Part shown: positions 1,856 through 21,261 of the stretch, in pieces
How positions within the stretch are numbered: the first letter of the stretch is position 1
How the letters are laid out: every line of letters starts with the position of its first letter
DNA from: a virus
Virus record (IMG/VR): IMGVR_UViG_3300017753_000137
Location: 1 to 21,302 of that record
DNA length: 21,302 nucleotides
Strand: one strand, 5' to 3'
Translations under genes and position numbers: made by a program
The notes under the pieces: generated by a model
What the model was told of the DNA's origin: nothing
Seen by the model: the letters and a program-made list of their open reading frames with translations, nothing else
Databases searched by the model: none

Positions 1856-3433
1856 TTAAATCAATTTTTTAAGTTTGTCAATTTGTTTTTGTTGATCTTT
1901 AATAGCTTCAATTAATAAAGAAACTATTTTATCATACTTAACTCCTTTATAACCATCTTCTCTTGTTTGTACTAATGAAGGTAATACTTGTTCAATTTCT
2001 TGTGCTATAACACCAAAATCTGTTCCTTCATATGTTGATTGATTATTATTCCAATCAAATGAATAACCACCTATTTGTTTGATTTTTCCAATTGGATCTT
2101 CAATTGGTTTAATATTGTCTTTTAAACGTTTGTCTGAAGTATAATATGCAATTACATCTTGTTGAGCTAAAATATTACCAGCAACTAAAAGTTTATGGTT
2201 AGTATTACTAGAAGCATCAACTCCTATACCTACATTATGTGATGGTGTTACAAGTCCTATTCCCCCACCAGCAATTTCCCAATATGTGTCTCCTCCTGCG
2301 CTTGCACTAATTACAACTGCACCTGTTCCAACCCCACCTTGTAATGTAATATTTGGACCTGCAGTTATAGATGTAACACCACTAGATCCTCCTCCTCCAT
2401 AACTTCCAGTAAAATAAAATCTACCAGAAGATGTGTCTATTAAAACAGTTGGATACCCACCAGTTCCAGCATCTGTTGTATTAGCATATAATAACCCACT
2501 TGCACTAAAATCACCAGAAGCAGTAATACCTTGTGCTTCATTTATTCTTAAAGCAATAGTATTATCAGTAAGCAATAATAAATCACTACCTGTAACTGCA
2601 ATACCATTAAAATTAGTAGTAGTATTTAAAGATGAAAGTTTAATTCCTGATGTACTAGCTTTTGAATGAAAATGGGCTAAAACAGAACCATTAGAAGAAG
2701 CAGATATTGCTGCTGAGGTTCCTGATTCACTAATGTGAAGTCTTACTTTAGGGTTTTGTTCTGCAATACCTACTAACCCACTTGAAGATATTATCATAGA
2801 AGGATTAGGAGTTTCTGTAGGTTCGGTACTAGTTCTAAATCTTATATTACCAGTAGTACTATTAACACCTTGAGCTGTTATATTTAAATTCTCTCCATAT
2901 TGATGGATTTCATTTGAATCAAAGGCTAAATGTTGATTAATATTATGTAAAATTAATAAAGAAGATGCAGATGCTTGAGTTAGAGAACTAGTACTAAGTC
3001 CTATAGTTTTACTTGATTCTATATATAATCCTTCACCTTCTATTGGATTATTAGTTGATCCTAAACCAACTGGGGTTAAAAAGTATGAAGCTGAATGTGC
3101 ACCACTACTTGATTGGTAAATTGGACCAAAGAAAGAATGTGAAGTAACACCAAGTTCTGGGGCAAAAGGTGGAGCTCCTGCTGATTGAGAACCAAAGACA
3201 TTACTTGATGTAAGGGTTAAATTTTGTAAATCTGTTGTTACTGCTGAAAAATCTAAAGATTCTAATGAATATGCTCCTGCATTAACTCCTGAGGCTGATA
3301 TAGTACCTGCAACTATTTGGGTTCCTGTTTCAGCTAAATTTAGCATTGAATCAATTAACTCACCAAATTGTCCTTCAGTAGGAGTATCTCCATCTTGAAA
3401 ATATTCTTTTAAATCTTCTTTATTTGTTGCCAT
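1856..3433 (-). CDS. Tail fibre protein with C-terminal S74 intramolecular chaperone
   Basis: This 525-residue protein is a probable trimeric fibre. The N-terminus (about 2-33) has a GDTPTEGQFGELIDS motif that I know from other S74-type fibre proteins, especially of Bacteroidota and their phages. The middle (about 40-420) is rich in Ser, Thr, Gly and Ala with repeated short beta-strand patterns and phrases such as NPKVRLHIS, LLVAGN and VGIG, typical of fibre shafts. Residues 433-525 form an S74 endosialidase-type chaperone: SDKRLKDNI at 433-441, FGVIAQEIE, GVKYDKIVSLLIEAIK, then a short C-terminal coiled coil. The family self-cleaves after the serine of the SDxRLK motif once the trimer has folded; S433 and K438 match the known Ser/Lys pair spacing. 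The start ATG follows an A/T-rich leader without a Shine-Dalgarno site. Confidence 0.88.
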   Translation of the reverse strand: MATNKEDLKEYFQDGDTPTEGQFGELIDSMLNLAETGTQIVAGTISASGVNAGAYSLESLDFSAVTTDLQNLTLTSSNVFGSQSAGAPPFAPELGVTSHSFFGPIYQSSSGAHSASYFLTPVGLGSTNNPIEGEGLYIESSKTIGLSTSSLTQASASSLLILHNINQHLAFDSNEIHQYGENLNITAQGVNSTTGNIRFRTSTEPTETPNPSMIISSSGLVGIAEQNPKVRLHISESGTSAAISASSNGSVLAHFHSKASTSGIKLSSLNTTTNFNGIAVTGSDLLLLTDNTIALRINEAQGITASGDFSASGLLYANTTDAGTGGYPTVLIDTSSGRFYFTGSYGGGGSSGVTSITAGPNITLQGGVGTGAVVISASAGGDTYWEIAGGGIGLVTPSHNVGIGVDASSNTNHKLLVAGNILAQQDVIAYYTSDKRLKDNIKPIEDPIGKIKQIGGYSFDWNNNQSTYEGTDFGVIAQEIEQVLPSLVQTREDGYKGVKYDKIVSLLIEAIKDQQKQIDKLKKLI

Positions 3434-3460: not shown

Positions 3461-5242
3461 TTAAGTATCCCATCTCAATATAATAGTAGTATCAGTTTCA
3501 TTTGAAGTTCTTAATGGTTGTCCTAATTTTCCTACAACAAGTAATTCATTACTTTCATTATATAATCCTATAGTTGTAACATATGGTTTAAAAAGTGATC
3601 CTGTTGCAAAATTTGATAAATCAGGAGAGGTATGGGTTTTTAATTTTCTTACTGAGGGATTTAAAGTATTATTGTATTCATTTTCATCTATAGTACATTT
3701 ATATTCATTTTCATATATTAAATGAGATCCTTGAAATTTAAGTTGATTTATTCCAAAAATAGCTTGTAAAGAAGCAGCTGTTCCTGGAACCCCACCTACT
3801 GTAAATATACCAGGTACATCTGGAAGTTCTATAGGACCTGAATCATCAATAGTCATAGTTCCAATACCATAACCTGCTTTGTTTAATATATATTGGTATT
3901 TTGGATGGGTTATTGTTACTAACCCTTGAGAATAAAATATATTTCCTATATAAGGTGAACCATTACTACTTTCATAATTATTTTTAACTTGTGTTGGAGA
4001 TAATGCTTTATCATAAATTTTTATTTGACTTAAAGAGCCACTAAAATAATTAGTATTACCCCCTTCATTACCAATATAAATATCTGCATTATTTCTATAT
4101 ACACCACTTAAAACTGTTTTTTCAGTTGATTTAATAGTATTTTTATAAATAAATATTTTAGAAGCCGATTGTACGCATACTATATGATGTTGTTTATCAT
4201 ATTCAAGTGGAACAGCATTTAAACTGTTTTGTTGTTTATCATTTTGTTTTTCAAAACTAAGAAAAGTTATAGGTGATACATAATTTGGATTTGTCGACGT
4301 CGCAGTAGGTTTTCGTAAATATATTTTAAATGGATATGAGTCTACATTTTTACTTATGATTTGAGATGATGCTGATGTTTGTAGTAAAGGGAAGGTTGTT
4401 TCTGTAGTAGATTTTTCAATTAGAAACATTTTGTCACCTTGATTACTCATAGTAGGAACATTTACCCAAAATTCAATTGAAAAGTCATCATCTGAATTAA
4501 AGTTAAATTTATTATTATTATAAATTTTTATTTCTGAATTATCTCCATTAAAATCTATTCCTGGAAATTTACTTTGAGAATTATTTGATGGGTGAAGTAT
4601 TTTTTCTGAAAAAGCTACATTATTATAATAAGTTTTATTAAGAAAATAACTATCATCATATTCATATTTATCAAAAGGTGTACTATAAGAATTAACAACG
4701 TTTACTCTTTCATCACCTTTTCTATAATATCTAGTAGGTTTAATATAACCATCATAAATATTTAAATCATATTTTTTATATCCTTCAATAGGACCTATAT
4801 TTAATAAAGTAGAACGAGGATCGGTAATATAATCATCTATATTTGTTCCACTTATTATAAGATTACCATAAGAATCATCTATTATTTTTCTATGACTAGA
4901 TGAAAGAAAAAATGATCCAGGTTTAATTTCATAACCATATAAACCTGCAGGTATAGATAAAATATTGGCTTCTTTATAAAGGGCTCTTTTATGTTTTAAA
5001 TAATTTTCACCTCCAAATTTATTATTTATATCTGTGATATAATTTTTATAATATAAATGATTTATTTGTTGATATTTTATATTTCCACTAGTATAAAGGT
5101 TTATATTAGTAGATGAATATGAAGATGTAAAATAATCTATATCGTTAAAAGCTGCAGAACTTGAATTAAGAGTGTATTGTTTATGGGCATTAAATGGTAC
5201 TACTGCATAGTCTCGGGGTGTAAATTGTTTATAAACTGACAT
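3461..5242 (-). CDS. Virion surface protein with LamG-like domain; paralogue of the next gene upstream
   Basis: This 593-residue protein is probably displayed on the tail or baseplate. Three parts can be seen. The N-terminal scaffold includes an IKPGSFFLSS block (about 106-115) and IIDDSYGNL (about 120-128). Residues about 226-425 form a LamG/concanavalin A-like beta sandwich, with FPGIDFNG, FSIEFWVN, IYIGNEGG and FSGSLSQIKIYDKALS as recognisable strands. Such domains commonly bind glycans. The C-terminal module (about 508-593) has NPSV, YVTTIGLYNESNELLVVGKL and QP. The scaffold blocks and C-terminal module recur in the protein encoded just upstream (5255-6346), which lacks the LamG part. The pair therefore look like duplicates, one with an inserted glycan-binding domain. 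Gaps on both sides are short (27 and 12 bases). The exact place in the virion is unknown. Confidence 0.7.
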   Translation of the reverse strand: MSVYKQFTPRDYAVVPFNAHKQYTLNSSSAAFNDIDYFTSSYSSTNINLYTSGNIKYQQINHLYYKNYITDINNKFGGENYLKHKRALYKEANILSIPAGLYGYEIKPGSFFLSSSHRKIIDDSYGNLIISGTNIDDYITDPRSTLLNIGPIEGYKKYDLNIYDGYIKPTRYYRKGDERVNVVNSYSTPFDKYEYDDSYFLNKTYYNNVAFSEKILHPSNNSQSKFPGIDFNGDNSEIKIYNNNKFNFNSDDDFSIEFWVNVPTMSNQGDKMFLIEKSTTETTFPLLQTSASSQIISKNVDSYPFKIYLRKPTATSTNPNYVSPITFLSFEKQNDKQQNSLNAVPLEYDKQHHIVCVQSASKIFIYKNTIKSTEKTVLSGVYRNNADIYIGNEGGNTNYFSGSLSQIKIYDKALSPTQVKNNYESSNGSPYIGNIFYSQGLVTITHPKYQYILNKAGYGIGTMTIDDSGPIELPDVPGIFTVGGVPGTAASLQAIFGINQLKFQGSHLIYENEYKCTIDENEYNNTLNPSVRKLKTHTSPDLSNFATGSLFKPYVTTIGLYNESNELLVVGKLGQPLRTSNETDTTIILRWDT

Positions 5243-14964: not shown

Positions 14965-16860
14965 TTAATATGTTGTTACACGTCCGTTAATATCTTGATT
15001 TGGGTATTTTAATTCAAAAATACTTGGATCCATTGAAGGATATATTACTCCATTTTTAATAGCTCCATTAAAATCGTATTTATATTGTGAATATCCTAAA
15101 TTTACCCCATTTTTATTATTTAATAATATACTTTCAACTGTTTGTACACCATTAATACCTGCAATTAAATTAGATATTTCAGATATAATAATAGGTTGAT
15201 TTATTTGCCATTTATCTATGTTAAAATAATCTTTTAATTCAGATATACATTCTAATATAACTTCATTATTATTATAATTTTTATATGTAGTAATTTCAAA
15301 ATCTAAACTAAAATTAATTATAAATGCATCTTTAATATTAATTGCATCTGTTAGCATTCTATATTGTTCTAAATAAGTTATTAAATTAGTTTTAGTAGCT
15401 GTATTTAGAGTAGATAAGTATTTATTTTTATCATACCCTAAAGTATATAGATTTAATGCTAAAGGATTTGGAATATTATTATATTCTGTTGTTAGGGGAC
15501 TTATTTGGTCATCTTGAGTTATATAAGCTTTAGAAATTTCACCAAACTCAGAAGGTAAGGATAATGTTCTTATAATATAATCATCTTTAGTTACTGTTCT
15601 TTGTTGAGAAGAAAAATTAGCTATTGTATTTAGTCTAATATCTTCTATAGAATCTCCACTTCCCCCTCCTGTTGCAGATTCTGGATTATTAGACGTAATT
15701 GATGATTTTACATAATTAGATAAATTAGAATTTAGATTGGGTTTACTAAAAGTAATTAATTCTTTATTTTGTGTAATTGTATTTGATGATACATTAGATT
15801 CTAATCCACCTCCTACAATATATGTTATAGTTAAAGTTGTATTAGCGGGTACTTGACCATATGTTTTAGTAAATAAAAAATTAGAAGGATCAAAAGCTAT
15901 ATCTAATTTAGATCTCCCATCTTTAATTCCTAATCCTATATTATCAGGATTGGGTATAATTTCTTCATCAGCTTTATCACTTACACCTGCACCAAATTGG
16001 ATTTCTAATTGATTATTAGTTTTAAATCTTGATATAAATCTTCTAGGGACTTTTTTTAGTTTTAAAAGATATGGTGTTTGTTGATTATATTGTTTTAGTT
16101 CAGGATCAATTGCCCCCGTATTTTCAATTTTATCAAAAATTGTATCTTGGGCTAAATAAGGAACTTCATTCCAAATGTTTCCTTCACTATCTATTATAGA
16201 TTCAATTGATATAATACTATTATCAAATAATTCTAAGGTTTTAAACTTTTCAGCTGCTCCTATTGTAAATGTTTGAGTTTTTCTTTCACCTGAAATTGCT
16301 CTAACTGTTCTTTTTATTAAATAATATGATGGATTACTATCCCCATCATAATATAATATTTCTGGTTCTGAAGTAGTTGATGATGAAATACTAAAATCTA
16401 CTTGATTTTCCAAATAAAAATTTGATCCTTCAGTTGAATTAAAAATAGAATTTTCATCTATTTTTAAAGCATAATTAAAATCTGGAATATGTTCTGTACC
16501 ATTATCATTTAATTTTGCTGGGATTTGTTGAAATATATCTAAATTTACATTAGAAGCGGCTGTGACTTTAGGTTTATAACCCATAGCATATGCCATATTA
16601 TATAAGTTTTCTTTTTCTTGGGCTAAAGATAAAAACGATTCTTTTAATTGAGTATCAGTATAAAATGATAAAATATCCCCAACATATGCTGACATTTCAA
16701 GAAACATCATTCCTGGATTACCTTCACTAAAATCATTAAAATTATTAGGAAAATATATTTCGGAAAATTCTATTAATTGGTTTTTAAAAGAATTAAAATC
16801 TTTATTAAGATATTTTACATCTTTATCTTGTGTTTTATTTGATACTTTATTATATGCCAT
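14965..16860 (-). CDS. Baseplate wedge protein, T4 gp6 / P2 gpJ-like
   Basis: At 631 residues this is close to the length of T4 gp6. Family members dimerise around the hub to make the inner baseplate ring. The N-terminal helical region has NDFSEGNPGMMFLEMSAYVG (42-61) followed by DILSFYTDTQLKESFLSLA and a NMAYAMGYKP segment. This is the standard baseplate-J opening of helices and Tyr-rich loop, followed by a Gly-Tyr turn. The central beta part (about 104-390) leads to the signature SIEDIRLNTIANFSSQQRTV (404-423) and the TKDDYIIRTLSLP segment. The C-terminal domain contains ISEISNLIAGINGVQTVES (559-577), the usual late motif. It directly follows the gp25-like gene by 12 bases, the conserved baseplate order. 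The leader is A/T-only (AATATATAAAAATG). No anomaly is seen. Confidence 0.9.
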   Translation of the reverse strand: MAYNKVSNKTQDKDVKYLNKDFNSFKNQLIEFSEIYFPNNFNDFSEGNPGMMFLEMSAYVGDILSFYTDTQLKESFLSLAQEKENLYNMAYAMGYKPKVTAASNVNLDIFQQIPAKLNDNGTEHIPDFNYALKIDENSIFNSTEGSNFYLENQVDFSISSSTTSEPEILYYDGDSNPSYYLIKRTVRAISGERKTQTFTIGAAEKFKTLELFDNSIISIESIIDSEGNIWNEVPYLAQDTIFDKIENTGAIDPELKQYNQQTPYLLKLKKVPRRFISRFKTNNQLEIQFGAGVSDKADEEIIPNPDNIGLGIKDGRSKLDIAFDPSNFLFTKTYGQVPANTTLTITYIVGGGLESNVSSNTITQNKELITFSKPNLNSNLSNYVKSSITSNNPESATGGGSGDSIEDIRLNTIANFSSQQRTVTKDDYIIRTLSLPSEFGEISKAYITQDDQISPLTTEYNNIPNPLALNLYTLGYDKNKYLSTLNTATKTNLITYLEQYRMLTDAINIKDAFIINFSLDFEITTYKNYNNNEVILECISELKDYFNIDKWQINQPIIISEISNLIAGINGVQTVESILLNNKNGVNLGYSQYKYDFNGAIKNGVIYPSMDPSIFELKYPNQDINGRVTTY

Positions 16861-16872
16861 TTTTATATATTA

Positions 16873-17307
16873 TTAACCATTTCCACGGGGGAAGTATGAT
16901 GAGTTAAAGTTTAATTGAATTGCATCTTTTGATCCATCTAAATTAAAACTATATGAAATTATTATGTGTAACTTATATTCATCATTTTCAAAATTTACAT
17001 TTACATCTGATAAAGTAATTACAGGAATGTAAAATTCTATTTGACTATTAATTTTATCATTTAAAACCTCTATATTTGGATTTTGTTCAAATAATAAATT
17101 TTTTAACCCTACACCAAAATTAGGTTCATTTACTCGTTCTCCAGGTTCAGTTAATAATAAATTAATTAAATTACTTTTAATTTGTTCTTTAACTGTTTTA
17201 GTACCTTTAAACATATTAACAGAATCAAGAGGAAAAGCAACCCCAATAGTAACATTTTTATTAATATCTAAAGGACTTATTCTTCTATTTCCGTTAATAT
17301 ATGCCAT
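16873..17307 (-). CDS. 25: Baseplate wedge protein, gp25 / GPW family
   Basis: This is a 144-residue member of the GPW/gp25 family, the small wedge protein that joins gp6 and starts sheath assembly in contractile tails. The signature is PGERVNEPNFGVGLKNLLFE at residues 55-74. It is preceded by the helix VKEQIKSNLINLLLTE and followed by an LNDKINSQIEFYIPVITL segment and a last beta strand pair. Length is close to that of T4 gp25 (132 residues). Its ATG shares its A with the TAA stop of the upstream gene, and the gp6/J-like gene follows closely. This is the clearest evidence that the phage has a contractile tail. Confidence 0.93.
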   Translation of the reverse strand: MAYINGNRRISPLDINKNVTIGVAFPLDSVNMFKGTKTVKEQIKSNLINLLLTEPGERVNEPNFGVGLKNLLFEQNPNIEVLNDKINSQIEFYIPVITLSDVNVNFENDEYKLHIIISYSFNLDGSKDAIQLNFNSSYFPRGNG

Positions 17308-17774: not shown

Positions 17775-18647
17775 TTAAGCAATTCGATATTGAATTACTT
17801 TAAAATTAGCATTCTTAATTCTTTCTATAGTGTTTGGTAGTAATTCATCTTCTGGGATATATATTTCTTGATCAGAACCACCAGAATTTGTACCTCCTAA
17901 CATATCATCTAAATTACTTTGAGCATCATCTACAGCAGCTTGATAAGCTTCATCTTCTATAGAATCACCTTCTACATTACACATTAAAGTATATTTAAGA
18001 TAAAATCCTTCAATTAAACCTATTACAGCATTTATAGTTGTTTTTAAAGTAAGTATAACTCCTATAGCTAAAGTTGTTATTCCTAGTATAATTGCAAATT
18101 TTTCTTGAATTTTTCTAACTTTTTTTTCAAAAACTTTTACTGAGTTATTTATTTCTTTTACTTTATTATTAGATTTATCTATTTGATCTTTTAATTTAAG
18201 TCCAGCATCAACATCAGCTGCTGGTCCTTTTAGTAAATATAAACCTACTTGAGCACTTATAGCTATAGTTTGTAATACAGGTATTAAAGCTTTTAAAGCT
18301 TCAATTATTGCAGTAATGGCTATAATTATTTTATTTATTTGTAGTAATTTTTCTTGTAAATTTACTAATTTTTCATGTGATAAATTAATTAAAGATTGCA
18401 TTTTTTCAACACTAGATATTAATTTATTATAAATAAAATCAATACGATTACGCACTTCTATACTACATACTAATTCGGGCCCCCTAGATGTAATTTCATC
18501 CATCATTATTTGTTTAACTGAATCTTTAGTAGGAATTTTTTGTTTAATTTCTATTATTTTTTTATTGGCTTCTTCTTTTACTTTAGGGGCTACAATATCT
18601 AAAATTTTATTACTTTGTTGTATTAATGTTACTATAGACCTTGACAT
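17775..18647 (-). CDS. Helical hydrophobic protein of the hub region, function unknown
   Basis: This is a 290-residue, almost wholly helical protein. Two long hydrophobic segments stand out: about 107-140 (IIIAITAIIEALKALIP then VLQTIAISAQVGLYLL) and about 184-217 (FAIILGITTLAIGVILTL then INAVIGLIEGFYL). Each is flanked by charged heptad-like helices (about 66-105 and 150-183). The C-terminal tail (about 225-290) is acidic, then Gly/Ser-rich (GGTNSGGSD), then mixed. There is no signal peptide. It sits between the spike-like gene (one base away) and the wedge operon. A protein with buried or membrane-inserting helices beside the hub could be carried in the tail and delivered to the host membrane, or plug the tube. 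A holin-like role is also conceivable. Neither is shown by the sequence. Confidence 0.55.
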   Translation of the reverse strand: MSRSIVTLIQQSNKILDIVAPKVKEEANKKIIEIKQKIPTKDSVKQIMMDEITSRGPELVCSIEVRNRIDFIYNKLISSVEKMQSLINLSHEKLVNLQEKLLQINKIIIAITAIIEALKALIPVLQTIAISAQVGLYLLKGPAADVDAGLKLKDQIDKSNNKVKEINNSVKVFEKKVRKIQEKFAIILGITTLAIGVILTLKTTINAVIGLIEGFYLKYTLMCNVEGDSIEDEAYQAAVDDAQSNLDDMLGGTNSGGSDQEIYIPEDELLPNTIERIKNANFKVIQYRIA

Positions 18648-18648
18648 A

Positions 18649-19128
18649 TTATATTGTTTTTACTTGTTTACTTAAATTTTCTTGAAATTTTTTTCTTAAT
18701 ATATCTATTTTACCTTTACGATTTTCAATAGCAATATCATTAATTATAGAAGGAGTAGTAACACCTCCTGGAACTAAATATGATATTTCTCCATCAATCA
18801 TATCTAATATACTATCTAAAACATCTAATAAACCTTCTGTTAAATCATCTCCAACCATCCATTCTTGCATTTTATGACCTAAAATAAGAGGTTCAGTAGG
18901 TAGATTTCCATCTTTTAAACCAAAATAAATATTAGGAGAATTTACAATAAATTTGCTATCTTCCTTATCACTTGTATCAAAATTAAAACTACCATTTGTA
19001 CTAAAACCAATAGCTTTATCTGAAAATAATAAAATAGAATCGTTTTTAGCGTTAAAAATTAAACGGTCTGAATCTATTATTATTTGTTTTCCTTGATATA
19101 TATATGGTGCATCTGGTGTATAACTCAT
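18649..19128 (-). CDS. Baseplate spike-like beta-rich protein
   Basis: This is a 159-residue protein. Residues about 13-70 consist of short alternating strands (KQIIIDSDRLIFNAKNDSIL, FSDKAIGFST, GSFNFDT, KFIVNSPNIYFG). The pattern resembles the intertwined beta-helix of phage central spikes such as the T4 gp5 C-terminus. A PTEPLILGHKMQEW block (77-90) follows, then an amphipathic helix (about 97-113) and a basic helical end. I know the NAKNDSI...PNIYFGL pattern from proteins next to OB-fold hub proteins in marine phages. Its ATG shares its A with the stop of the hub-amidase gene, so the two products are made together. I infer that it trimerises as the membrane-puncturing tip beneath the hub. 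No metal-binding HxH tip motif is seen. Confidence 0.6.
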   Translation of the reverse strand: MSYTPDAPYIYQGKQIIIDSDRLIFNAKNDSILLFSDKAIGFSTNGSFNFDTSDKEDSKFIVNSPNIYFGLKDGNLPTEPLILGHKMQEWMVGDDLTEGLLDVLDSILDMIDGEISYLVPGGVTTPSIINDIAIENRKGKIDILRKKFQENLSKQVKTI

Positions 19129-20915
19129 TACATTGTTAATTTAACTATTTTTTCATGATTATTAAATTTATCTTTACTTAAATCCATTCCACTTACAATT
19201 CCATTGTAAATATTTTTATTTGGTATTGATAATAATGAACAATATTTACGAACATCAAACCATGGACATTCTTTTGCTGCAATTTGATTATGTCCTAATA
19301 TTATAATATCAGGGTATTTAGTTAAATAAAATTTAACTAATTCATTTAATGAATTAGCTTGTTTTTTAGTCATATCAAATGCACCTTTTCCTCCTATCCA
19401 ACTTATATTAATTGTATTACTATTTCCTATAGTTGAACTTTTATTATATCCTTTTCCTGGACTATTTACACCATTTGATGGTGTATTATCTTTTAACATT
19501 TGAACACAAGTTCCTTCATAATCTATAGTTACATGATACCCTCCTTTTTTCCATCCTCCTACTTTTTCTTTTAATTGTCCTTCTTTTTCATGTCCTTTTG
19601 GATAATATTTATCTGCACTTTTCTGCATAAAATACCAAGCTACCCATAAATGAGGATTAACACTAAATGTTAATGGTGAAGCTGTTGTATGAATTACTAA
19701 ATATGAAACTCTAGATGGTGATGCAACTTCATCTGAATCTATTCGAGTTATTATATCAGCTACACTTAAAGGAGTATGAACTGTAGTTGCTATTCCAACA
19801 TATTGATATGAAGGAATAGGAGTATTGAATGATATTTCAGTTAAATCTACAGAAGTTAAAGCTGAGCTGATTGGTGTATCATCATTAACATCATTAGTAT
19901 CTTCTTCTGTTCCTGATATATCTTCAATTTCTATATCAAAAACTCCATCTAAAAGTTCTTCTGCATAATCTGCAAAAGGATCATCTGGGTCATCTATAGA
20001 AGATGTAGGAGGTAAAGTTTGAGGGGTTGATTCAAATGATTCTGTAATTTCTTCAGGAATATCTTCTGCTACTATTAATGGTTGGGTAATTAATGTTTCA
20101 GGAGTTTGATAATTTCCTGCTAATTGTTCTTGTATAGTAGGTTCTATAACTAAATTAGCTCCAAATGATTTTTGATTTAATGAAGCAGGTATAAAATTAG
20201 ATAATTGTTGGTTAGATGTCATATAAATTGATGATGCATCACCTATTATATCTTCTTTAGCGTGAATCCAACCTTTATCATCTAATTGACTTGATTGACC
20301 ATTCCTTATAATAATAATAGGATCTCCCAATTTACCATTATTACTCCATTCATTAGGAGTACCTACTTTATCACTTATATTAGTAGAACCAAATCTTATA
20401 GAATTACCAAATCTACCTTCTATAATAGTATCACCTTCATAAGGTAATAAAGGTTTTATATTTAATTTTTCTTTAAAATAATGACCTAAATTAATTCCTG
20501 TTGATCCATCTTCTACTTGTCTTGCGATACTTTGTTCATAATCATTAGATGAAGCATTATTAAATTCTTCTATATATGGTAAAGCATTATGGTGAGGATG
20601 GTTCCAGATATTTAATATGGGAAGATAATATGTTGATATTTTATTATCTTTATCACCTGATGACATTATTAAAACCACTTCATTTAATAATGGGTAATTT
20701 TTTACAAATGAAAATAAAGGTTTTGCAATAGAATCAGTAGAAGGATTAGATTTATTTAAAGTTGTATAAAATATAGTACCTATTGAATCATAACTACCAT
20801 AATCTTCAAAACGATCATGAGAAGGATCTAATATAATATCAGTAACCCTAACAGCTTCTAATTTAGTATCGGGAGATAAAATTTGAAATTGATTATCTAT
20901 TCTAACTATTGCCAT
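19128..20915 (-). CDS. Baseplate hub protein (gp5-like N-terminus) fused to T7-lysozyme-like N-acetylmuramoyl-L-alanine amidase
   Basis: This is a 595-residue two-part protein. Residues 18-235 resemble the OB-fold hub domain of marine phage gp5-type proteins: VRVTDIILDPSHDRFEDYG (22-40), SIGTIFY, LPYEGDTIIEGRFGNSIRFG (157-176), GDPIIIIRNGQ and DASSIYMTSNQ. An acidic, Pro/Thr-rich linker (about 280-345) follows. Residues 405-562 are an amidase that should cleave the bond between MurNAc and L-Ala in peptidoglycan. Zinc ligands H409 (in VIHTT), H542 and C550 and catalytic residues Y460 (in GYH) and K548 match T7 lysozyme H17, H122, C130, Y46 and K128. Between H409 and Y460 there are about 20 more residues than in T7. 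The gene overlaps the upstream gene by 14 bases. The fusion would put wall digestion at the tail tip. All active-site residues are present, so it is probably active. Confidence 0.87.
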   Translation of the reverse strand: MAIVRIDNQFQILSPDTKLEAVRVTDIILDPSHDRFEDYGSYDSIGTIFYTTLNKSNPSTDSIAKPLFSFVKNYPLLNEVVLIMSSGDKDNKISTYYLPILNIWNHPHHNALPYIEEFNNASSNDYEQSIARQVEDGSTGINLGHYFKEKLNIKPLLPYEGDTIIEGRFGNSIRFGSTNISDKVGTPNEWSNNGKLGDPIIIIRNGQSSQLDDKGWIHAKEDIIGDASSIYMTSNQQLSNFIPASLNQKSFGANLVIEPTIQEQLAGNYQTPETLITQPLIVAEDIPEEITESFESTPQTLPPTSSIDDPDDPFADYAEELLDGVFDIEIEDISGTEEDTNDVNDDTPISSALTSVDLTEISFNTPIPSYQYVGIATTVHTPLSVADIITRIDSDEVASPSRVSYLVIHTTASPLTFSVNPHLWVAWYFMQKSADKYYPKGHEKEGQLKEKVGGWKKGGYHVTIDYEGTCVQMLKDNTPSNGVNSPGKGYNKSSTIGNSNTINISWIGGKGAFDMTKKQANSLNELVKFYLTKYPDIIILGHNQIAAKECPWFDVRKYCSLLSIPNKNIYNGIVSGMDLSKDKFNNHEKIVKLTM

Positions 20916-21261
20916 TATTTTTCTTAGGTTCTTTTTCTGTTTCTTCTATTATATCTTGTAACTGATTCATTTCTTCTTCAGTTAACATATCACCTCCCCC
21001 ACTGGTAGCATTTCCTGTGGATAAACGTTGAACTATAGCTGCCATTTTTAATAAATGGTCATCATTTTTAACACTAATTTCCATATATTCTTTAATTAAT
21101 GGAACAACAACAGTAGCGTCTCCTAAATTTTGAATAAGAGGTCTTAATTCAGCTATAAGCTGACCTATTTGTTTACCTTTTTTTTTCTGATTAGTGTGGA
21201 TTTCTTTAAGAAGATCAGAAAATGTTTTATCGTCAAATATTACTTGGCCTAATGGATCCAT
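20902..21261 (-). CDS. Small helical protein upstream of the hub gene, function unknown
   Basis: I do not recognise this 119-residue protein. It is predicted helical throughout: residues 11-50 (DKTFSDLLKEIHTNQKKKGK, then IGQLIAELRPLIQ), 55-85 (VVVPLIKEYMEISVKNDDH, then LLKMAAIVQRL), a Gly-rich break (SGGGDM, 92-97), and an acidic helix with a Lys/Asn-rich end. There is no membrane segment. An in-frame TAA five codons upstream makes this ATG the first possible start, and a copy of the 16-base repeat lies just upstream. Its stop lies 14 bases inside the hub gene, so the two are probably translationally coupled. By position it could be a hub assembly chaperone or tail completion factor, which is only a guess. 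Confidence 0.6.
   Translation of the reverse strand: MDPLGQVIFDDKTFSDLLKEIHTNQKKKGKQIGQLIAELRPLIQNLGDATVVVPLIKEYMEISVKNDDHLLKMAAIVQRLSTGNATSGGGDMLTEEEMNQLQDIIEETEKEPKKNNGNS

Follow-up and report, generated by a model that had tools for sequence, protein, structure and literature searches.

A putative two-chain puncturing device with an exchangeable entry enzyme in uncultured contractile-tailed phages

A pair of tightly coupled genes in a viral contig probably encodes the central puncturing device of a contractile-tailed phage as two chains, namely a hub with a tethered amidase and a separate spike, with the place of the enzyme being open to exchange. This reading is built on gene order, domain identities, relatives that encode hub and spike in one chain, and the exchange of enzymes on conserved hubs. 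The stretch analyzed (hereafter the window) is the whole IMG/VR record of 21.3 kb, almost every gene of which lies on the minus strand. The features relevant to the device are as follows.

20902..21261, minus strand: conserved helical protein of 119 aa, directly upstream of the hub (gene order in relatives)
19128..20915, minus strand: hub-amidase gene, 595 aa (ORF listing; relatives in 80 IMG/VR loci)
20607..20858, minus strand: OB-like domain of the hub, residues about 20–103 (AF2 strands and Foldseek; weak)
20151..20453, minus strand: conserved hub stretch, residues 155–255, with the motif GDxIxEGRFGNSIRFG (invariant columns)
19731..20129, minus strand: acidic linker, residues 263–395, of low model confidence (AF2, composition)
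19212..19715, minus strand: N-acetylmuramoyl-L-alanine amidase domain, residues 401–568 (PF01510, phrog_822, Foldseek 6ssc)
19126..19130, minus strand: TAATG junction of hub stop and spike start, with one base in common
18649..19128, minus strand: spike gene, 159 aa (C-terminal part of a single hub–spike chain in relatives)
18913..19089, minus strand: octad-repeat part of the spike, residues 14–72, likely a trimeric beta-helix (self-similarity at lags 8 and 16)
18664..18876, minus strand: C-terminal helices of the spike, residues 85–155, coiled-coil-like (model, lags, PDB coiled-coil matches)
16873..17307, minus strand: baseplate wedge protein gp25 (PF04965, 53 bits; phrog_261)
14965..16860, minus strand: baseplate wedge gp6-like protein (phrog_219, E 3.6e-16)

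The baseplate locus

The presence of gp25 and of the gp6-like protein, both encoded downstream of the hub/spike pair, points to a contractile-tail baseplate cluster, and the pair is thus encoded amid baseplate genes. The ORF listing confirmed the 595-aa and 159-aa reading frames, and the letters at their junction, TAATG, show the TAA of the hub and the ATG of the spike overlapping by one base. Since the gaps between hub (or enzyme) gene and spike gene are mostly −1 to +2 nt across the clade of split genes described below, coupled translation in equal amounts is suggested, in agreement with the initial annotation, which had described two coupled genes sharing an ATG/TAA. In turn, the hub gene begins within the end of the 119-aa gene upstream of it, with 14 nt in common (20902–20915). 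No PAAR gene was found within the 21.3-kb window. No hub was found in the scanned GTDB genomes, which left the host unassigned.

Several neighboring genes were also observed. The 119-aa protein, which has no family match, is also encoded just upstream of the hub in a 484-kb phage record as well as in Flavobacterium phage immuto and Microcystis phage Mel-JY01. Directly after the spike, in the window (17775–18647) and in nearly all split relatives, lies a gene for a conserved, helical, partly hydrophobic protein of 290 aa that could have a role in membrane passage; immuto has a different helical protein there, not of the same length. Farther away, a GIY-YIG homing endonuclease of the SegE type (PF19835, 89 bits) is encoded at 22–462, one matching PHROGs family of which is named "NAD synthetase," by appearance a mislabel. 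A tail fiber with an S74 chaperone domain (1856–3433) and its neighbor with a Laminin_G_3/concanavalin-like lectin domain (3461–5242) are likely host-recognition proteins.

One-chain relatives and the two halves of the device

The strongest evidence that both genes form one device comes from relatives and not from fold prediction. In tblastn searches, the N-terminal part of the hub and the 159-aa protein matched one and the same gene in immuto (378 aa; QQO92072) and in Mel-JY01 (503 aa; WWT39504), and such one-chain homologues were found at about 20 further viral loci, with the final census, based on scans of viral contigs, comprising 22 distinct hub–spike chains. In the one-chain proteins, the end of the hub profile lies close to the start of the spike profile, and a recognized hydrolase was found in none of the 22 chains. 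The 119-aa gene is located upstream in nearly all one-chain loci, and gp25 and gp6 are located downstream in most of the contigs that are long enough. Because relatives encode both segments in one chain and in the same gene order, the 159-aa protein is the C-terminal half of a hub–spike protein in detached form. Immuto and Mel-JY01 thus resemble the window in their homologous hub and spike parts and in gene order, and differ from it in having a single chain without an enzyme. In Mel-JY01, a gene annotated as "chitinase" (COG3179; L083:9361–10392), with an acidic N-terminal stretch, directly follows the hub–spike gene and fills the position of the enzyme, but as a separate, adjacent gene of its own.

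The spike was analyzed by profile self-similarity on an alignment of 47 spikes. Within residues 14–56, self-similarity was maximal at lag 8 (z 3.0, p 0.003) and high again at lag 16 (p 0.008), many lags having been looked at; the positive control, T4 gp5C, peaked at the same two lags with z of about 8, and the hub and T4 OB controls gave no comparable lag-8 pattern. The octad signal is of moderate strength, yet eight is the period to be sought, this being the period of the VxGxxxxx repeat of T4 (PMC3004832; PMC4576200). Residues 85–155 instead have their self-similarity at lags of 3, 4, and 7, and their PDB matches include designed coiled coils; helices at the C-terminus are also present in the structure model. 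The Pfam family Gp5_C did not match the 159-aa protein, and the only spike-like PDB sequence match, VgrG 8gra, was not significant (E 0.2, and E 2.1 in a second search). The single-chain model is poor (pLDDT 70, without strands in residues 1–71), and a BFVD search with it returned nothing below E 1; as a poor monomer model is expected of an intertwined trimer, it was taken as evidence neither way. From the periodicity and the fused relatives, we infer that the 159-aa protein is a spike in which helices come after a short triple-stranded beta-helix.

The N-terminal part of the 595-aa protein would be the hub capping the tail tube. An OB fold at its N-terminus is likely rather than demonstrated. 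The AF2 model places strands at residues 20–27, 48–52, 62–66, 80–87, and 93–103, with mean pLDDT of about 57–81, and falls below pLDDT 50 over residues 100–256, including the conserved stretch 155–255, whose GDxIxEGRFGNSIRFG sequence was found in each relative that reaches it. In Foldseek searches with this model, the matches ranking below the amidases were the A-1(L) baseplate chain 8kea_D, P2 gpV, VgrG, and small OB folds, all weak (E 0.05–0.7). The top fold match in BFVD, Vibrio phage VP-1 "baseplate hub subunit and tail lysozyme" (E 4.5e-9), was probably driven mainly by the shared amidase. When the alignments of hub and spike were compared, profile against profile, with eight gp5 proteins, no homology to T4 gp5 was detected. 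Likewise, Gp5_OB (PF06714) matched neither the window protein nor the 44 and 15 relatives searched, with T4 and Aeromonas proteins as controls matching at E below 1e-60. PDB sequence searches with the hub alignment gave chance matches only, no significant sequence match to T4 gp5, VgrG, or solved spikes was obtained, and neither Pfam nor PHROGs usefully recognized the N-terminal part of the hub, the spike, or the fused relatives.

These results bear on the initial annotation in different degrees. Its puncturing device split in two genes is backed by the one-chain relatives, the same synteny, and the octad periodicity, the fold of the hub being its weakly supported part, and its separately encoded, beta-rich spike half is substantiated by the one-chain relatives and the gp5C-like periodicity. 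The hub half gains from the one-chain relatives; its OB fold draws on weak fold matches and a model of low-to-moderate confidence, with Gp5_OB unmatched. The OB boundary, placed at residues 1–235, is to be redrawn, with the OB-like part covering only residues of about 20–103, residues 155–255 forming a separate conserved stretch, and the gene break coming after the latter. The structure model and profile comparison that the annotation had proposed turned out well for the amidase, which was modeled mostly with confidence and matched as T7-lysozyme-type, and less so for the hub and the spike, with five strands in the OB region, low pLDDT over residues 100–256 of the hub, no gp5 match for either, and a VgrG sequence match that was not significant.

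With the OB assignment of the 595-aa protein being weak, this protein could instead belong to the baseplate and bear an amidase without forming the OB base of the spike. It could be a hub of the gp27 type, for example, such as that of cyanophage A-1(L), where the hub has the enzymes and the spike has a gene of its own (PMC10966104). We consider this unlikely. In A-1(L), it is the spike chain that has the OB domain, and a protein of 159 aa is too small to hold an OB domain plus helix; relatives join the counterparts of the 595-aa N-terminal part and of the 159-aa protein in a single chain, which would be expected of an OB–spike protein and not of gp27; and the fold matches other than amidases are spike proteins and OB folds.

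The amidase and the exchange of entry enzymes

With Pfam Amidase_2 (PF01510), residues 401–551 of the 595-aa protein scored 42.4 bits, the curated cut-off being 26 bits, and the AF2 model, confident for most of the domain, matched the solved amidase 6ssc in Foldseek (E 6.2e-6). Residues H409, Y460, H542, K548, and C550 correspond to H18, Y47, H123, K129, and C131 of T7 lysozyme (Met = 1), so that the zinc ligands (H409, H542, and C550) and the catalytic residues (Y460 and K548) are all in place. Furthermore, the five residues are identical in 17/17 distinct amidase-bearing hubs and are thus not merely a chance motif. Preceding the enzyme, residues 263–370 contain 28 Asp/Glu and no Lys/Arg. Both the T7-lysozyme-type amidase at the C-terminus of the hub and the long acidic linker before it, as initially annotated, therefore stand. 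Release of the amidase by cleavage, offered there as a possibility, was considered and dropped, no evidence for proteolysis having been found; a tethered amidase fits better.

Among database amidases, the closest are endolysins from phages of Flavobacterium and Porphyromonas (about 33% identity over the stretch), which would suit a late-lysis endolysin accidentally joined to a tail protein. Such an origin is nevertheless very improbable, given that the gene lies in a baseplate operon and that unrelated hydrolases (M15, C39, and Phage_lysozyme2) are found at this position in relatives, as would be the case for an entry enzyme; Phage_lysozyme2, one of these occupants, is the "phage tail lysozyme" of Pfam.

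The exchange of these domains was followed on a tree of the N-terminal part of 84 distinct hubs, 22 from one-chain proteins and 62 without an attached spike, which are parted by one supported branch (SH-aLRT 95). Among the 62 split hubs, 17 carry a fused Amidase_2 domain, 17 carry a fused M15 domain, and 16 are followed by a stand-alone M15 gene, placed before that of the spike. The remainder comprises C39-like enzymes (2), Phage_lysozyme2 (1; L157), a C-terminal domain of no recognized family (4), hubs without an enzyme (3), and unclassed cases (2). On the best tree, enzyme type changed at least 13 times; when only starred branches are counted, the amidase and the fused M15 domain require at least four and at least five changes, respectively, all of these being estimates from a quickly built tree with some long branches. 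The closest pair with unlike enzymes, L032 (amidase) and L140 (M15), is 93% identical in the N-terminal part of the hub; between L003 (amidase) and L015 (no enzyme), the identity is 92%. Conversely, L018 and L080 have hubs from different clades but sister amidases on them, 51% identical, which tentatively suggests, the branches being long, that cassettes move between phages. In this clade, the enzyme place is thus a cassette site, with peptidoglycan hydrolases from unrelated families replacing one another, and the three close relatives without any enzyme indicate that the enzyme is not essential everywhere.

In one contig, L025, the M15 domain is a separate ORF although the N-domain of the hub does not differ from that of the fused L022; natural unfusion was rejected here, a frameshift being more probable. 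That the split or the enzyme differences in general are assembly or frameshift artifacts of metagenomic contigs, as L025 might suggest, is scarcely credible, since dozens of independent contigs show split genes with tight junctions, TAATG recurs, and each main enzyme class is represented by several contigs.

Two further observations concern the C-termini of hubs. Tandem hub genes with unlike C-termini occur in L018 (2955–6867; a domain without a family match, and an amidase) and in L157 (3956–6312; Phage_lysozyme2, and a second, truncated hub), as if one phage had two alternative or mixed hubs. In addition, hubs in L171 (2586–5000), L185 (3081–5477), and L018 (2955–4817) share a C-terminal domain with an NSIHIP motif and a WAExxHxAD-like stretch, which has no Pfam match and may be a new domain for cutting the wall or for binding.

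As a tentative extension, the hub–spike junction could be a dedicated exchange site for entry enzymes, where unrelated hydrolases are swapped, fused, unfused, or lost on a near-constant hub. With the permanent gene break, a new enzyme would need no adjustment of the spike or of a maturation protease, and swaps would do no harm. The exchanges may track the wall chemistry of the host, or inhibitors of entry enzymes from host or prophage, comparable to Spackle, which inhibits T4 gp5.

Proposed working and comparison with known systems

If the two genes encode a two-chain puncturing device, its working, including trimer formation, contraction, dissociation, and enzymatic activity, may be envisaged as follows. 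The amidase would hang from the hub by the long acidic linker, and the spike would pierce the outer membrane upon contraction. Being encoded as a separate chain, the spike could then dissociate without proteolysis, leaving three amidases on acidic tethers of about 130 residues at the tip of the tube. These would cut the NAM-L-Ala bonds of peptidoglycan, allowing the tube to reach the inner membrane. The hub-amidase and the spike would thus be equivalent to gp5* and gp5C from the outset.

The textbook puncturing device is that of T4, with one precursor, one lysozyme, and one cleavage. A large group of phages, mostly marine and uncultured, appears to build a T4-like device without the cleavage and to exchange its enzyme freely, even between hubs that are 93% identical. 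Whether the entry enzyme is selected by wall chemistry, by inhibitors, or by nothing thereby becomes a testable question. These natural chimeras also show possible attachment points for enzymes on a spike, and the hub and spike profiles permit annotation of the immuto and Mel-JY01 proteins now listed as "hypothetical."

T4 gp5 is synthesized as one OB–lysozyme–beta-helix precursor and is cut at Ser351–Ala352 into gp5* and gp5C, which remain together, with the lysozyme being 10% active until the beta-helix departs (PMC3004832). The initial annotation had set the window against a one-chain gp5; this holds for the precursor and not for the mature form, and the contrast is smaller than claimed because T4 gp5 is itself cut. 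Both systems have the order of hub, peptidoglycan hydrolase, break, and octad spike, the OB fold of the hub and the beta-helix of the spike being likely in the window; both are encoded in a baseplate cluster, and in both the spike is finally a separate chain. In the window, however, the break arises from a gene boundary instead of a maturation protease and is placed after an extra conserved stretch; the enzyme is an amidase, with no lysozyme (muramidase) domain, Phage_lysozyme2 occurring only in the relative L157; the octad part covers only about 60 residues and is followed by helices; a PAAR gene was not found; and sequence homology is undetectable. Moreover, the T4 lysozyme is held by a second covalent linker, whereas the amidase of the window ends at a stop codon and is not so held.

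A precedent for gp5 with an amidase is provided by an isolated phage, Vibrio phage VP-1. Its gp5 (AWY10192) contains Gp5_OB, Amidase_2, and an S74 chaperone in one chain, as assigned with Pfam. As in the window, Amidase_2 follows the hub and a long linker; unlike in the window, the protein is a single chain of 1016 aa with an S74 chaperone end, and its amidase is just 32% identical. An odd order of tail lysozyme and beta-helix is likewise seen in gp078 of Klebsiella phage RaK2, where the lysozyme is C-terminal to the beta-helix in a single chain (PMC3622015). The evolved VgrG spikes of type VI secretion are reported to combine OB/beta-helix with C-terminal enzymes, some of which act on peptidoglycan (PMC9927483); these differ from the window in being one chain and a cellular weapon, and in the sequence match not being significant. 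In A-1(L), hydrolases are carried by the trimeric hub gp15, which encircles the spike, and the OB domain is found on the spike gp25 (PMC10966104). The enzyme-bearing center of the baseplate and the separate spike protein are thus shared with the window, and the location of the enzymes on gp15 and of the OB domain on the spike chain is not.

No description of the split arrangement or of enzyme exchange in this clade was found among open-licence papers. Overall, entry hydrolases on tail tips and enzymes fused to VgrG are well known, and it is not the function of the present device, which is ordinary, but its layout and the ease with which its enzyme changes that are unusual.
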